64,000 nucleotides of DNA from Vicingaceae bacterium (GTDB taxonomy: Bacteria; Bacteroidota; Bacteroidia; Flavobacteriales_E; Vicingaceae). Under the pieces are notes generated by a model. The model did not search any database. It was not told the DNA's origin and saw only the letters and a program-made list of their open reading frames with translations. Below, piece by piece: positions 3,091 through 8,325 of this stretch. The stretch is taken from NCBI GenBank assembly GCA_018402765.1, contig JAGYIE010000002.1, positions 620,001-684,000 of the forward strand, written 5' to 3'. The translations under genes and the position numbers were made by a program. Position 1 is the stretch's first letter, and the number at the start of each line of letters is the position of its first letter.

Positions 3091-4023
3091 CTAAAGACTA
3101 TTTTCTAGCTCTATATCAAACTGAACTAGATTCACAAATTGCTTTACTCTTTCGGCCAATTCTTTTTCGGTAAGCGATTGAATTCTTTCTGTGCCAAATT
3201 TTTCAACAGTAAATGAAGCTAAAGCGCTTCCAAAAATGATAGCTCTTTTCATATTTTCAAAAGAGATATCCTGAGATTGTGCCAAATAACCAATAAATCC
3301 TCCTGCAAATGTATCACCGGCCCCTGTTGGGTCAAAGACTTCTTCAAGGGGCAATGCGGGAGCAAAAAATACTTCGTTTTTATGAAAAAGCAATGCTCCA
3401 TGTTCACCTTTTTTGATAATTAAATATTTAGGTCCCATTTCCATAATTTTCTTCGCCGCCACAATTAATGAATATTCACCTGAAAGTTGTCTTGCTTCTT
3501 CATCGTTAATGGAAAGAACATCTACGAGCTTAATAGTTTCTTTTAGGGCATCCAATTTAATGTCCATCCAAAAGTTCATCGTGTCAGCCACAATTAATTT
3601 TGGTCGATTAGGCAAGCTTTCGATAACTGCACGTTGTAGGTCCGGGTCTAAATTTCCTAGCATTAAAAACTCACAATCTTTGTAGCTTTCTGGGATAACT
3701 GGAGTAAATGTTTCTAAAACATTTAACTGTGTATCAAGTGTGTCTCTGGTGTTCATATCATTATGATATCTTCCTGACCAAAAGAAGGTTTTCTCATCCT
3801 TCTTCACTTCTATACCTGCAGTGTCTACTCCTCTGCTCTCCAGCATATCCAAGTACTCTTGCGGAAAATCTCCACCTACCACTGAAACAACATTTACACG
3901 TTTTCCAAATCGAGAAGCTGCAAGTCCTATGTAGGTTGCAGCTCCACCTAATATTTTGTCTGTTTTTCCAAAGGGTGTTTCAATTGCGTCAAACGCAACA
4001 GTTCCAATAGCTAGTAAACTCAT
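3091..4023 (-). CDS. PfkB family sugar/nucleoside kinase
   Basis: This 310-residue ribokinase-family enzyme phosphorylates a sugar or nucleoside with ATP in the cytoplasm. The N-terminal family signature GGAATYIGLAASRFG is near residue 26. The C-terminal signature DPTGAGDTFAGGF is near residue 237, and its GAGD aspartate is the catalytic base. The length is normal for the family. The substrate cannot be read from sequence: adenosine kinase-like and ribokinase-like members look similar at this level. The gene diverges from the tRNA-Asn repeat region; the -7 box at 4049-4056 lies in the shared intergenic stretch. Confidence 0.85.
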   Translation of the reverse strand: MSLLAIGTVAFDAIETPFGKTDKILGGAATYIGLAASRFGKRVNVVSVVGGDFPQEYLDMLESRGVDTAGIEVKKDEKTFFWSGRYHNDMNTRDTLDTQLNVLETFTPVIPESYKDCEFLMLGNLDPDLQRAVIESLPNRPKLIVADTMNFWMDIKLDALKETIKLVDVLSINDEEARQLSGEYSLIVAAKKIMEMGPKYLIIKKGEHGALLFHKNEVFFAPALPLEEVFDPTGAGDTFAGGFIGYLAQSQDISFENMKRAIIFGSALASFTVEKFGTERIQSLTEKELAERVKQFVNLVQFDIELENSL

Positions 4024-4048
4024 CGATTAATTTTTTTCTAATTTTTTA

Positions 4049-4056
4049 CAAATATA
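4049..4056 (-). promoter_or_regulatory. -7 promoter box for the PfkB kinase gene
   Basis: On the minus strand this reads TATATTTG, 25 bases upstream of the start codon at 4023. The surrounding 4024-4120 is very AT-rich and has no other recognisable content. Confidence 0.45.
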
Positions 4057-4171
4057 TTGTTTAATTAAAAACTTTATATAAATTTGCAACCCATTTCGAG
4101 ATAAATGTATGAAATAATTAAAGTAACAGCGGTTACTTTTAGAAAGAAATTGAAATAATTAAAAAATAAAT

Positions 4172-4244
4172 TCCTCCTTAGCTCAGCTGGTTAGAGCATC
4201 TGATCCCGTTCAAACGGGAAGGGTTCTTGGTTCTGATGGGAGGT
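4172..4244 (+). pseudogene. defective tRNA-Asn-like copy 1
   Basis: The 5' half (TCCTCCT acceptor strand, D-arm GCTC..GAGC, ATCTGA) is identical to the intact tRNA-Asn at 4553. From the anticodon loop on it differs. The loop and 3' anticodon strand are replaced by TCCCGTTCAAACGGGA (4204-4219). The T-arm has lost its 3' strand, and the acceptor 3' strand is GGGAGGT instead of AGGAGGA. A normal anticodon loop and T-arm cannot form, so it should not act as a tRNA. Confidence 0.8.
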
Positions 4245-4298
4245 AAAAAGTAACAGCGGTTACTTTTAGAAAGAAATTGAAATAATTAAAAAATAAAT

Positions 4299-4371
4299 TC
4301 CTCCTTAGCTCAGCTGGTTAGAGCATCTGATCCCGTTCAAACGGGAAGGGTTCTTGGTTCTGATGGGAGGT
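4299..4371 (+). pseudogene. defective tRNA-Asn-like copy 2
   Basis: Same structure as copy 1, displaced by exactly 127 bp. The substituted anticodon module lies at 4331-4346. No base difference from copy 1 was seen by eye. Confidence 0.8.
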
Positions 4372-4425
4372 AAAAAGTAACAGCGGTTACTTTTAGAAAG
4401 AAATTGAAATAATTAAAAAATAAAT

Positions 4426-4498
4426 TCCTCCTTAGCTCAGCTGGTTAGAGCATCTGATCCCGTTCAAACGGGAAGGGTTCTTGGTTCTGATGGGAGGT
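4426..4498 (+). pseudogene. defective tRNA-Asn-like copy 3
   Basis: Same structure as copies 1 and 2, again 127 bp further on. The substituted anticodon module lies at 4458-4473. It is followed directly by the hairpin that opens the unit with the functional tRNA-Asn. Confidence 0.8.
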
Positions 4499-4552
4499 AA
4501 AAAGTAACAGCGGTTACTTTTAGAAAGAAATTGAAATAATTAAAAAATAAAT

Positions 4553-4626
4553 TCCTCCTTAGCTCAGCTGGTTAGAGCATCTGACTGTTAATCAGAGGGT
4601 CCTTGGTTCGAGCCCAAGAGGAGGAG
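4553..4626 (+). tRNA. tRNA-Asn (anticodon GTT)
   Basis: This is a complete cloverleaf of 74 nt. The acceptor stem TCCTCCT (4553-4559) pairs perfectly with AGGAGGA (4619-4625), with discriminator G4626. The D-arm is GCTC/GAGC with a GG-containing loop. The anticodon stem TCTGA/TCAGA has loop CTGTTAA, giving anticodon GTT. The T-arm is CTTGG-TTCGAGC-CCAAG. CCA is not encoded. A hairpin terminator follows at once. It is the only intact tRNA in the window and sits between two families of defective copies. Confidence 0.97.
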
Positions 4627-4630
4627 CAAT

Positions 4631-4656
4631 AGAGCTGTACTTAAAAGTACGGCTCT
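4631..4656 (+). terminator. intrinsic terminator of tRNA-Asn
   Basis: AGAGCTGTACTT pairs with AAGTACGGCTCT (one G-T pair) around an AA loop, followed by TCTTGTTTCT. The same hairpin recurs in every 379-bp unit at 5010-5035, 5389-5414 and 5768-5793. The copy at 6147-6172 has AGAGTAGTAC and pairs less well. Confidence 0.8.
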
Positions 4657-4688
4657 TCTTGTTTCTGATAGTTTGTATTTGTGGAGTT

Positions 4689-4949
4689 ATGTCGTACTTT
4701 GTTTACATCTTATATTCTGAAAAAATCGACAAATATTACGTTGGCAAAACTGAGAATCCTGAAGGTCGTTTATCTTTTCACAATTCTGAAATAAATGGTA
4801 TTTGGACGAAGCGTGGTCAACCGTGGGAGTTGGTAAAATTAATAGCGTTTGAAAATTCAACATTACAATCAAAAGCTGAGCGATTTATAAAACGCCAGAA
4901 AAGCAGAAAACTCATCGAAGGAATTATAAAGAAAGGCTGGGTTGGTTAG
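4689..4949 (+). CDS. small GIY-YIG domain nuclease, copy 1
   Basis: This 86-residue protein is a single GIY-YIG domain. FVYILYS (residues 4-10) and YYVGKT (16-21) are the GIY and YIG strands. R27 and H31 lie on the following helix, and E64 in the SKAERFIKR helix is the usual metal-binding glutamate. I chose the ATG at 4689 (MSYFVYI) because family members begin right before the first strand; upstream codons are tRNA-terminator sequence. The last residues (KKGWVG) and the stop codon are encoded by the D-arm-like part of the next tRNA-like copy. Stand-alone GIY-YIG proteins of this size are common in Bacteroidota and their role is uncertain. It differs from copies 2-4 by a silent C/T and one leader base. 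Confidence 0.85.
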   Translation: MSYFVYILYSEKIDKYYVGKTENPEGRLSFHNSEINGIWTKRGQPWELVKLIAFENSTLQSKAERFIKRQKSRKLIEGIIKKGWVG

Positions 4950-5005
4950 CGCATCTGATCCCGTTCGAACGGGAAGGGTCCTTGGTTCGAGCCCAAGAGG
5001 AGGAG
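4936..5005 (+). pseudogene. 5'-truncated tRNA-like copy A
   Basis: It begins in the D-arm (GCTGGGTTGGTTAGCGC against GCTCAGCTGGTTAGAGC in tRNA-Asn) and lacks the 5' acceptor strand. It carries the substituted anticodon module TCCCGTTCGAACGGGA (4959-4974), then an intact T-arm and 3' acceptor strand with G5005. It overlaps the 3' end of the upstream nuclease gene. No functional tRNA can form without the 5' acceptor strand. Confidence 0.75.
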
Positions 5006-5067
5006 CAATAGAGCTGTACTTAAAAGTACGGCTCTTCTTGTTTCTGATAGTTTGTATTTGTAGAGTT

Positions 5068-5328
5068 ATGTCGTACTTTGTTTACATTTTATATTCTGAA
5101 AAAATCGACAAATATTACGTTGGCAAAACTGAGAATCCTGAAGGTCGTTTATCTTTTCACAATTCTGAAATAAATGGTATTTGGACGAAGCGTGGTCAAC
5201 CGTGGGAGTTGGTAAAATTAATAGCGTTTGAAAATTCAACATTACAATCAAAAGCTGAGCGATTTATAAAACGCCAGAAAAGCAGAAAACTCATCGAAGG
5301 AATTATAAAGAAAGGCTGGGTTGGTTAG
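5068..5328 (+). CDS. small GIY-YIG domain nuclease, copy 2
   Basis: This 86-residue protein is identical to copy 1. It has the GIY and YIG strands and the presumed catalytic Arg27, His31 and Glu64. An open frame extends upstream through the tRNA-like sequence and its terminator to a TTG at 4942, but that extension is simply translated tRNA-like sequence. The ATG at 5068 is preferred. As in copy 1 the stop lies in the next tRNA-like D-arm. Confidence 0.85.
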   Translation: MSYFVYILYSEKIDKYYVGKTENPEGRLSFHNSEINGIWTKRGQPWELVKLIAFENSTLQSKAERFIKRQKSRKLIEGIIKKGWVG

Positions 5329-5384
5329 CGCATCTGATCCCGTTCGAACGGGAAGGGTCCTTGGTTCGAGCCCAAGAGGAGGAG
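5315..5384 (+). pseudogene. 5'-truncated tRNA-like copy B
   Basis: Same as copy A, 379 bp further on, with the palindromic anticodon module at 5338-5353 and an intact T-arm and 3' acceptor strand. Confidence 0.75.
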
Positions 5385-5446
5385 CAATAGAGCTGTACTT
5401 AAAAGTACGGCTCTTCTTGTTTCTGATAGTTTGTATTTGTAGAGTT

Positions 5447-5707
5447 ATGTCGTACTTTGTTTACATTTTATATTCTGAAAAAATCGACAAATATTACGTT
5501 GGCAAAACTGAGAATCCTGAAGGTCGTTTATCTTTTCACAATTCTGAAATAAATGGTATTTGGACGAAGCGTGGTCAACCGTGGGAGTTGGTAAAATTAA
5601 TAGCGTTTGAAAATTCAACATTACAATCAAAAGCTGAGCGATTTATAAAACGCCAGAAAAGCAGAAAACTCATCGAAGGAATTATAAAGAAAGGCTGGGT
5701 TGGTTAG
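5447..5707 (+). CDS. small GIY-YIG domain nuclease, copy 3
   Basis: Identical 86-residue product to copy 2, with all presumed catalytic residues kept. The successive genes lie in rotating frames because the 379-bp period is not a multiple of three, so they cannot be read as one fusion protein. Confidence 0.85.
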   Translation: MSYFVYILYSEKIDKYYVGKTENPEGRLSFHNSEINGIWTKRGQPWELVKLIAFENSTLQSKAERFIKRQKSRKLIEGIIKKGWVG

Positions 5708-5763
5708 CGCATCTGATCCCGTTCGAACGGGAAGGGTCCTTGGTTCGAGCCCAAGAGGAGGAG
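5694..5763 (+). pseudogene. 5'-truncated tRNA-like copy C
   Basis: Same as copy A. The palindromic anticodon module lies at 5717-5732; T-arm and 3' acceptor strand are intact, 5' acceptor strand missing. Confidence 0.75.
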
Positions 5764-5825
5764 CAATAGAGCTGTACTTAAAAGTACGGCTCTTCTTGTT
5801 TCTGATAGTTTGTATTTGTAGAGTT

Positions 5826-6086
5826 ATGTCGTACTTTGTTTACATTTTATATTCTGAAAAAATCGACAAATATTACGTTGGCAAAACTGAGAATCCTGAA
5901 GGTCGTTTATCTTTTCACAATTCTGAAATAAATGGTATTTGGACGAAGCGTGGTCAACCGTGGGAGTTGGTAAAATTAATAGCGTTTGAAAATTCAACAT
6001 TACAATCAAAAGCTGAGCGATTTATAAAACGCCAGAAAAGCAGAAAACTCATCGAAGGAATTATAAAGAAAGGCTGGGTTGGTTAG
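5826..6086 (+). CDS. small GIY-YIG domain nuclease, copy 4
   Basis: Identical 86-residue product to copies 2 and 3. It is the last complete gene of the array. The tRNA-like copy behind it is followed by an altered, weaker terminator hairpin. Confidence 0.85.
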   Translation: MSYFVYILYSEKIDKYYVGKTENPEGRLSFHNSEINGIWTKRGQPWELVKLIAFENSTLQSKAERFIKRQKSRKLIEGIIKKGWVG

Positions 6087-6142
6087 CGCATCTGATCCCG
6101 TTCGAACGGGAAGGGTCCTTGGTTCGAGCCCAAGAGGAGGAG
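6073..6142 (+). pseudogene. 5'-truncated tRNA-like copy D
   Basis: Last of the 3'-part tRNA copies, with the palindromic module at 6096-6111. The hairpin behind it (6147-6172) reads AGAGTAGTAC where the others read AGAGCTGTAC, so two stem pairs are lost. Confidence 0.75.
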
Positions 6143-6204
6143 CAATAGAGTAGTACTTAAAAGTACGGCTCTTCTTGTTTCTGATAGTTTGTATTTGTAG
6201 AGTT

Positions 6205-6369
6205 ATGTCGTACTTTGTTTACATTTTATATTCTGAAAAAATCGACAAATATTACGTTGGCAAAACTGAGAATCCTGAAGGTCGTTTATCTTTTCACAAT
6301 TCTGAAATAAATGGTATTTGGACGAAGCGTGGTCAACCGTGGGAGCTTGTTAATTTCATCTTTAAATAA
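6205..6369 (+). pseudogene. truncated GIY-YIG nuclease, copy 5
   Basis: The first ~49 residues match the other copies (through QPWELV), then the sequence switches to unrelated bases after 6345 and stops after 54 residues (NFIFK). The helix with Glu64 and the C-terminal part are missing, so the product should be inactive. This marks the right-hand end of the array, 160 bp upstream of lepA. Confidence 0.8.
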
Positions 6370-6501
6370 TGGCTCATACAACCAAATTTATAATTTCGTG
6401 TTATTGAAATTATTAATACGTGTATTTAGAAACATTTAGCGCTGAATTATTGTATAGAGAATAATTCATTTACTCTCATTAAATTCTTGAGTCAAAAACA
6501 G

Positions 6502-6509
6502 TAAATTTG
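6502..6509 (+). promoter_or_regulatory. -7 promoter box of lepA
   Basis: TAAATTTG lies 19 bases upstream of the lepA start. No well-spaced TTG was found. The rest of 6370-6528 is AT-rich without other signals. Confidence 0.45.
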
Positions 6510-6528
6510 TGCTCAATTTTATTGAACT

Positions 6529-8325
6529 ATGGAGCACATTCGCAACTTTTGTATCATCGCACACATTGATCATGGTAAAAGCACATTAGCAGACAGAATG
6601 CTACAGCAGACCAATACGATTACAGAACGTGAACTTCAAGCGCAAACGCTTGATGATATGGATTTGGAGCGAGAAAGAGGCATAACTATTAAGAGTCATG
6701 CTATTCAAATGGATTATGAACAAGATGGTAAGAAGTACACCCTTAACCTTATTGATACTCCTGGACACGTTGATTTTTCTTATGAAGTTTCTCGTTCCAT
6801 TGCAGCATGTGAAGGAGCCCTGTTAATAGTTGATGCAGCTCAAGGAATACAAGCACAAACTATTTCGAATCTTTACTTGGCATTAGAGCATGATTTGGAA
6901 ATTATACCAGTTTTAAATAAGATTGATTTGCCTTCGGCTAATCCTGAAGAAGTAAAAGATCAAATAGTCGATTTGATTGGGTGTAATAGAGATGATATTC
7001 TTTCTGCTTCTGGTAAAACAGGAATGGGTGTAGATAAAATATTAGAGGCCATAGTTGCTAGAGTTCCCCATCCTGTTGGCGACCCAAATGCACCGCTTCA
7101 GGCATTAATATTTGACTCTGTATTCGACTCGTACAGAGGGATAAATGCTTTTTTTAAGGTGGTTAATGGAGAAATTAAAAAGGGAGATAAGGTAAAATTC
7201 GTTAACACTGGAAAAACGTATTTTGCTGATGAGATAGGTACACTCAGATTAAAGCAACAACCCAAAAGTGTAGTTAAGACTGGCGATGTTGGTTATATTA
7301 TATCAGGAATTAAAGTAGCGAAAGAAGTTAAAGTGGGTGACACGATTACCACACTAGAGAATCCTTGTGATTCTGCAATTCAGGGTTTTGAAGATGTAAA
7401 ACCAATGGTTTTTGCAGGGATATATCCGGTTGATACAGACGAGTATGAGGAGTTGCGTGATGCAATGGAAAAATTACAGCTAAATGATGCGTCATTAACC
7501 TTTGAGCCAGAATCATCTGCAGCATTAGGATTCGGTTTTCGATGTGGATTTTTGGGTATGCTTCACATGGAAATTATCCAAGAACGATTGGAGCGAGAAT
7601 TTAATATGACAGTTATAACAACTGTTCCTAACGTATCTTACCATGCTTATTTAGTTCGGAATCCTGAAGAGCGAATTTTGATAAACAATCCTTCTGACTT
7701 ACCTGAAGCGACAATTTTAGAGCGAGTAGAAGAGCCATATATTAAAGCCCAGATTATTACGAAGTCTGATTTTGTGGGAACTGTAATGAGTTTATGTATC
7801 GACAAAAGAGGTGAACTCAAAAATCAGGTTTACTTAACACCTGAGCGCGTGGAGTTGACTTTTGAGATTCCATTAGCTGAGATTGTATTCGACTTCTATG
7901 ATAAACTTAAAACTATTTCTAAAGGGTATGCTTCTTTTGATTACCACCCAATGGGTTATAGAGAGTCTAAACTTGTAAAAATGGATCTTCTATTAAATGG
8001 AGATCAGGTAGATGCTTTATCAGCTTTAATTCATAAAGACAAAGCATTTGACTTAGGCAAGAGAATATGTTTAAAGTTGAGAGAGCTACTGCCTCGTCAG
8101 CAATTCGATATTGCTATACAAGCAGCTATTGGTGCAAAAATTATTGCTAGAGAAACAGTAAAAGCCCTGCGAAAAGATGTAACCGCAAAATGTTATGGAG
8201 GGGATATTTCAAGAAAGCGAAAGTTGTTAGAGAAGCAAAAGGCCGGTAAAAAGAGAATGCGCCAGATTGGTAGTGTTGAAGTGCCGCAAAATGCATTTAT
8301 GGCAGTCTTAAAGCTTGATGACTAA
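6529..8325 (+). CDS. lepA: elongation factor 4 (LepA), translational GTPase
   Basis: This 598-residue GTPase binds ribosomes and promotes back-translocation or rescue of stalled ribosomes. The G1 loop AHIDHGKS is at residues 11-18. The G3 motif DTPGH is near 77 and the G4 motif NKID near 131. EF-G-like domains II, III and V follow. The LepA-specific C-terminal domain ends with [20 protein letters not shown] and VEVPQNAF. The length is standard. The ATG at 6529 starts directly at the conserved N-terminus. The gene is monocistronic and lies between the GIY-YIG array and a sigma factor operon. Confidence 0.98.

Follow-up and report, generated by a model that had tools for sequence, protein, structure and literature searches.

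A tandem array of GIY-YIG nuclease genes at a tRNA-Asn gene of a Vicingaceae bacterium, a probable minimal selfish element specialised on its tRNA

The window analysed here is a 64,000-nucleotide stretch on contig 9 (JAGYIE010000002.1, positions 620,001 to 684,000) of the 3.1-Mb, 16-contig genome of a Vicingaceae bacterium (GCA_018402765.1). Its sole tRNA gene by ARAGORN, tRNA-Asn(GTT), is joined to a tandem array of 379-bp units, each built around a gene for a small GIY-YIG nuclease and a defective copy of the same tRNA, and is preceded by a second, shorter array. The features of the locus, in window coordinates, are as follows.

4120..4584, + strand: 127-bp tandem array, 3.7 copies, of pseudo-tRNA-Asn plus leader (TRF; sequence)
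4203..4219, + strand: palindrome ATCCCGTTCAAACGGGA in place of the anticodon loop of an upstream pseudo-tRNA; also at 4330-4346 and 4457-4473
4553..4627, + strand: intact tRNA-Asn(GTT), its 3' part inside the repeat unit (ARAGORN; Rfam RF00005, E = 6.7e-14)
4596..6353, + strand: 379-bp tandem array, 4.6 units (TRF; unit-by-unit comparison)
4631..4656, + strand: hairpin AGAGCTGTACTTAAAAGTACGGCTCT 3' of the tRNA, an intrinsic-terminator-like stem recurring in every unit (read from the sequence)
4689..4949, + strand: nuclease copy 1, 86 aa, single GIY-YIG domain (open reading frame, ORF; Pfam; AlphaFold2)
4937..5006, + strand: pseudo-tRNA-Asn 1, comprising D-arm, palindrome (4958-4974), T-arm and acceptor 3' strand (sequence, BLAST, junction mapping)
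5068..5328, + strand: nuclease copy 2 (ORF list; unit comparison)
5337..5353, + strand: palindrome ATCCCGTTCGAACGGGA in place of the anticodon loop of the second downstream pseudo-tRNA; also at 5716-5732 and 6095-6111
5447..5707, + strand: nuclease copy 3 (ORF list; unit comparison)
5826..6086, + strand: nuclease copy 4 (ORF list; unit comparison)
6205..6369, + strand: nuclease copy 5, truncated, with a degenerate 3' end (ORF list; unit comparison)

Each unit runs from the tRNA 3' part through the terminator-like hairpin and the GIY-YIG gene to a pseudo-tRNA 5' part that holds a palindrome. A first-pass annotation of this DNA had placed the start of the 379-bp repeat within the real tRNA-Asn and had derived the C-terminus and stop codon of the nuclease from a tRNA-like D-arm; both points are borne out, the former by the TRF and ARAGORN coordinates and the latter by the closing WVG codons and TAG stop, which are read in the D-arm of the pseudo-tRNA. 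The same annotation counted four identical nuclease genes and a truncated copy, which is correct at the protein level but not for the DNA: units 2-4 show no differences among them, whereas unit 1 differs from these at two single-nucleotide polymorphisms (SNPs), a synonymous one and another that lies 5' of the nuclease gene. Unit 5 is degenerate beyond about base 234 of the unit. The pseudo-tRNAs of the unit, of which the later copies end at 5385, 5764 and 6143, are without the acceptor 5' strand. The unit encodes the GIY-YIG gene only, with no tyrosine or serine integrase, and an Rfam scan of 4000-6600 returned the tRNA, one chance antisense match and nothing else, with no intron; the real tRNA-Asn is uninterrupted.

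Three features of this genome go beyond the first-pass account. First, the 127-bp array upstream of the real tRNA-Asn, with BLAST matches to the tRNA at 4172-4233, 4299-4360 and 4426-4487, contains no nuclease gene. Second, in every pseudo-tRNA-Asn the anticodon loop is exchanged for the palindrome ATCCCGTTC(A/G)AACGGGA, which occurs seven times in the 3.1-Mb genome, always at the tRNA-Asn locus (reversed control, none). Third, the same contig carries another array (C9:906-910 kb), in which tRNA-Met(CAT) precedes 10.2 copies of a 457-bp unit; the unit combines a GIY-YIG gene distinct from that of the window with a truncated tRNA-Met that again holds a palindrome. Elsewhere in the genome (L027:1218-1436; G000 C10:590229), a lone GIY-YIG gene splits a transposase-like reading frame, as judged by eye.

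It could be argued that such arrays are products of assembly, as units 2-4 are identical and some relatives carry their arrays on draft scaffolds with N runs inside them (L031, L102, L109). This is scarcely credible: units 1 and 5 have private differences, a second and different array exists in the same genome, and independent arrays are found in many genomes, single-contig ones included (for example G244). The simple assembly duplication that the first-pass annotation named as its refutation thus fails on the SNPs between units and on the independent arrays in many species.

The 86-aa protein matches the GIY-YIG family (PF01541) with a Pfam E-value of 2.9e-13 and 50.4 bits against a cut-off of 22.6. 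The domain spans residues 3-73, and the AlphaFold2 model is one compact domain (pLDDT 94.8). Arg27 and Glu64 are invariant in A1 and A3 and match the catalytic Arg and Glu of GIY-YIG enzymes (PMC2988022); a motif-E Asn was sought, and near the C-terminus there is no invariant Asn. The closest solved structures by sequence are 1zg2, 1ywl and 7wme, of the UPF0213 and Slx1 types, and the nearest folds are likewise Slx1 (6seh_C, TM 0.70) and UPF0213. NCBIfam gave no match, and PHROGs and PADLOC gave none for the three family members tried. Between species the proportion of synonymous differences (pS, 0.58-0.98) lies far above that of nonsynonymous ones (pN, 0.05-0.27); the protein is therefore strongly constrained and under strong purifying selection.

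A relative at E <= 1e-6 is present in 94 of 148 high-quality Bacteroidota genomes (62 of 83 genera). At 63 of 70 sampled loci a tRNA or tRNA piece lies within 400 nt on the same strand, where, on a rough reckoning that assumes some 45 tRNA genes per 3.5 Mb, about 1% of random genes would be expected so near a tRNA. Pieces of tRNA stand on both sides of the gene at 45 of the 70 loci, the arrangement is tandem at 20, and over 20 isoacceptors are covered phylum-wide; direct repeats flank the nuclease gene in the repeat comparison around the loci. Among the other seven, two (L207 and L236) overlap or abut RNase P RNA, one (L250) retains degenerate tRNA-Met ends with a palindrome and one (L251:750-1453) has the gene 3' of the transfer-messenger RNA (tmRNA) gene on the same strand. 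The tmRNA arrangement recurs at L091:1501-2569, where the tmRNA itself holds a CCCGAAAGATCGGG palindrome. An independent, protein-only scan of named genomes found 21 of 21 loci beside tRNA pieces, the hosts being Vicingaceae, Roseivirga, Marivirga, Algoriphagus, Chitinophagaceae, Psychroflexus, Winogradskyella, Chryseobacterium and Salinivirgaceae and, from outside Bacteroidota, Melioribacteraceae; the query for the contig scan was three Asn-type sequences, a 20-sequence alignment being too diverse. In 46 genomes of the same family, all tRNA-linked GIY-YIG genes are bracketed by, or adjoin, pieces of one same tRNA.

A tree of 67 genes requires 2 changes of the tRNA-linked label, where shuffled labels require 19.4, and a sister clade in the same bacterial family, which serves as a negative control, has 41 members of which none is tRNA-linked. 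Stand-alone GIY-YIG genes, which the first-pass annotation mentioned near tRNAs in Bacteroidota, therefore do not all belong to this type, that sister clade being large. The refuting case that it named, homologues lying mostly far from tRNA genes, fails, in that close homologues are not far from tRNAs. Genes of the non-tRNA clade (L029, L037-L059, L063-L088) often lie between direct copies of dispersed repeats of the types CTTCGACTCCGCTCAGGGTGACA and CGTCATTGCGAGG, and the flanking direct repeat score exceeds 25 in 22 of 43 loci, with a shuffled maximum of 14.

Mapping of the pseudo-tRNAs on the intact tRNA, done by eye for Asn, Val and a few more, revealed recurrent left|right junctions for each isoacceptor: 26|44 for Lys, 32|44 for Asn, 37|48 for Met, 50|59 for Asp, 56|62 for Phe and 31|41 for Ala, with Leu in the T-arm and Arg, Val and Pro near 27|45. 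The Lys junction is common to Chitinophagaceae, Melioribacteraceae and Algoriphagus. A perfect stem of at least 6 bp stands at the junction in 25 of 30 pseudo-tRNAs, as against 3 of 30 real tRNAs at the same place, in a test without preselection for palindromes; the palindrome arms are complementary at 161 of 162 pairs, a figure given no evidential weight, since these sequences were chosen for being palindromic. On a tree of 41 genes, 17 changes account for isoacceptor and 8 for junction class, compared with 28.0 and 20.3 respectively after shuffling, and 0 of 200 shuffles were as low for either; the labels were coded by hand, and support from so short a protein is limited. The nuclease clade thus tracks both the identity of the tRNA and the position of the palindrome. 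Passive tandem duplication by slippage or unequal crossing-over, with surplus copies decaying and the GIY-YIG gene hitchhiking, would fit the near-identity within arrays and the tandem pseudo-tRNAs that lack a gene, but leaves unexplained the tRNA linkage at 63 of 70 loci, the recurrent isoacceptor-specific junctions and their palindromes, the coupling of clade to isoacceptor and the purifying selection; already disfavoured, this explanation is considered highly improbable.

In the majority layout the real tRNA is followed by the gene and then the pseudo-tRNA, and in the other (L080, L113) the pseudo-tRNA comes first and the real tRNA last, with the palindrome in the D-arm. Either layout allows the intact tRNA to be understood as a native half joined to a half that the element supplied. 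At L128:1299-1700 there are five tandem pseudo-tRNA-Met copies, and in each of them the D-arm and the anticodon arm hold different palindromes. ARAGORN names pseudo-tRNAs at L102 and L121 as tRNA-Stop(tta) or tRNA-???, labels that can mislead annotation.

Presence and absence were compared between species, as the first-pass annotation had proposed for flanks with and without the gene. Synteny of coaX and tRNA-Phe is kept in 30 of 30 Winogradskyella loci (coaX being the anchor, and polA uninformative as one); one has the full element (G050), one a remnant (L165) and 28 no nuclease match, although the sequence of one of these 28 (L188) stops at the tRNA and allows no judgement. The site is found both occupied and empty. 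The gene is not confined to the neighbourhood of tRNA genes: the P3 hairpin of RNase P RNA holds a GIY-YIG gene of the same lineage on the minus strand in two genomes, at L236:1191-1525 (G177) and at L207 (G166). In G177 the gene is flanked by perfect 23-bp inverted repeats within P3. Within one genus P3 of rnpB is occupied in 2 of 6 species, and the other four have a short, empty P3.

The inverted repeats and junction palindromes raise the possibility that the palindrome is itself the replicator, a mobile or non-autonomous unit resembling repetitive extragenic palindromic (REP) sequences, with the GIY-YIG protein as a hairpin- or palindrome-specific nuclease, the pseudo-tRNAs as landing sites and the gene carried along. 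That palindromes are private to each element was considered and rejected for other hosts, where they are also found away from tRNAs; within the window's genome it holds. Palindromes of the form TCCCGAT..ATCGGGA number 1-47 copies in 10 of 11 genomes, with a reversed control of zero and some copies away from tRNAs; pseudo-tRNA arrays without the nuclease exist; the fold resembles the structure-specific Slx1; and the copy in the RNase P RNA gene occupies the loop of the 23-bp inverted repeat. The palindrome and nuclease may accordingly be separable. Nevertheless a palindrome replicator is unlikely: in the window's genome the palindrome occurs at the tRNA-Asn locus only, the junction position follows nuclease clade and isoacceptor, and the tRNA elements keep the gene outside the palindrome. 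A TCCCGATAGCTATCGGGA palindrome also stands in what by eye is an apparent cobalamin-riboswitch leader (L123:1224, G049).

A defensive or otherwise domesticated role was also weighed, in which the nuclease guards the tRNA locus, for instance by cutting tRNA-bearing phages or tRNA-integrating mobile DNA, and the pseudo-tRNAs act as decoys. Many phages carry tRNA genes (PMC13096335), and such a role would suit both the strong purifying selection and the lengthy stay of the gene at orthologous loci; with no PADLOC match, patchy presence within a genus, decay and no conserved partner gene seen, it is quite improbable.

It is suggested instead that the tRNA-Asn locus probably houses a minimal selfish nuclease element specialised on this tRNA, which would spread through break repair, leave a palindrome-marked pseudo-tRNA behind and be amplified in tandem. 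The anatomy, the bracketing by a single tRNA, the specificity for isoacceptor and position, the tandem growth, the presence or absence between species and the constraint on the protein are observed; the break by the nuclease, the role of the palindrome and the copying through repair are inferred. The nuclease would break or nick the tRNA gene close to its anticodon loop. Recombinational repair from an element-bearing copy would insert the unit at the break. The incoming unit would bring the missing half of the tRNA, so that one functional tRNA is rebuilt, and the displaced copy would stay as a pseudo-tRNA with a palindrome at the target loop that may mark or protect the site. Further breaks and misaligned repair between neighbouring units would let the array grow. 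The first-pass annotation had reached a similar interpretation in part: the phylum-wide bracketing and frequent tandems lend good support to an apparently selfish nuclease element that is tied to tRNA and has multiplied where it stands, but its account of remnant, target and generality needs correcting. What it took for a target-site remnant is rather a displaced pseudo-tRNA with a palindrome, similar copies stand upstream as well, and the target is isoacceptor-specific.

Several observations weigh against this suggestion. The rebuilt tRNA retains the supposed target, and therefore something must spare it; for free-standing GIY-YIG enzymes, inefficient cutting of the donor allele is mentioned in PMC13096335 by way of a report cited there. 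The protein is without a DNA-binding extension, unlike known homing endonucleases, and its nearest solved relatives are UPF0213 and the structure-specific Slx1. Searches of IMG/VR and of phage and plasmid collections found no copies of the family, and hence no vehicle. Tandem pseudo-tRNA-Lys (L115), -Pro/-Leu (L121) and -Asp (L127) with palindromes have no adjoining nuclease gene. Finally, pfkB-tRNA-Asn synteny is common to the window's genome, Acidiluteibacter ferrifornacis and a third genome, from a different genus, in which the nuclease has decayed; such sharing within a genus, with decay in its sister genus, is as compatible with prolonged vertical inheritance at the site as with active spread.

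The nearest precedent is SegB of phages T4 and T6, where a GIY-YIG gene likewise adjoins tRNA genes, many isotypes lie near segB, the enzyme is a reported cutter of tRNA-containing DNA, and experiments show that it drives tandem tRNA-segB amplification by recombination (PMC13096335; PMC2988022). In T6 escape mutants a 718-bp tRNA-Tyr-segB unit is repeated in tandem; uvsX and uvsY mutants showed no such amplification, and the join is proposed to form at microhomology of tRNA and segB ends (PMC13096335). SegB shows that a GIY-YIG nuclease beside tRNAs can drive the expansion of an array. SegB is phage-borne, and phage homing endonucleases fuse the catalytic domain to DNA-binding domains, whereas the present gene is chromosomal, encodes a single 86-aa domain without a PHROG match and is accompanied by palindrome-marked pseudo-tRNAs with isoacceptor-specific junctions. 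It is not classed as a homing endonuclease, because it is without the DNA-binding region of such enzymes; presence or absence at a fixed site among relatives, as in free-standing homing endonucleases, is nonetheless seen in Winogradskyella and at rnpB P3. The same layout is known from fungal mitochondrial mobile ORFs (Allomyces atp6; Glomus atp6, atp9, cox2 and nad3), in which the endonuclease ORF arrives with a duplicate of the 3' portion of the host gene, the original 3' portion being displaced and persisting downstream (PMC3630166). Duplication of the 3' part of the host gene around the nuclease gene is found at 45 of the 70 loci here; the fungal cases concern organellar protein genes, and those described here a bacterial tRNA, a palindrome in the displaced copy and tandem units.

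Other comparisons are partial. REP/RAYT systems share palindromes, a dedicated nuclease-type enzyme and gene-less non-autonomous copies, but their enzyme is a Y1/HUH transposase rather than a GIY-YIG protein, and here the palindromes stand at fixed positions in tRNA copies. Integrative elements of tRNA genes (phages, integrative and conjugative elements, satellites) also restore the tRNA 3' part and leave a displaced fragment, whereas the present unit has no integrase, is below 0.5 kb and leaves a displaced copy with D-arm sequence and a palindrome. Slx1 and UPF0213 share the single GIY-YIG domain but are proteins of repair or unknown function and are not known as elements linked to a target gene.

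More tentatively, at somewhat short of even chances, the locus may exemplify a phylum-wide class of minimal mobile elements whose Slx1-like GIY-YIG nuclease, a protein of one domain, settles in the hairpin loops of essential structured RNA genes, the host RNA being rebuilt or tolerated and the displaced copies marked by palindromes. The targets would then be tRNAs of over 20 isoacceptors, P3 of RNase P RNA and possibly tmRNA. No description of such a system was found in the open-licence literature, and this kind of element is apparently both widespread across Bacteroidota and undescribed. If this reading is true, one target-directed nuclease lineage would explain the pseudo-tRNA arrays and at least part of the dispersed palindromes of Bacteroidota, and would be a bacterial-chromosome counterpart to the homing elements of phages and fungi, parasitising the cell's most conserved genes yet leaving them alive by restoring each tRNA that is entered. 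It would also offer a test system for how a one-domain nuclease chooses its tRNA gene, how the host tolerates cuts in RNA genes that are essential and how a nuclease drives gene amplification.

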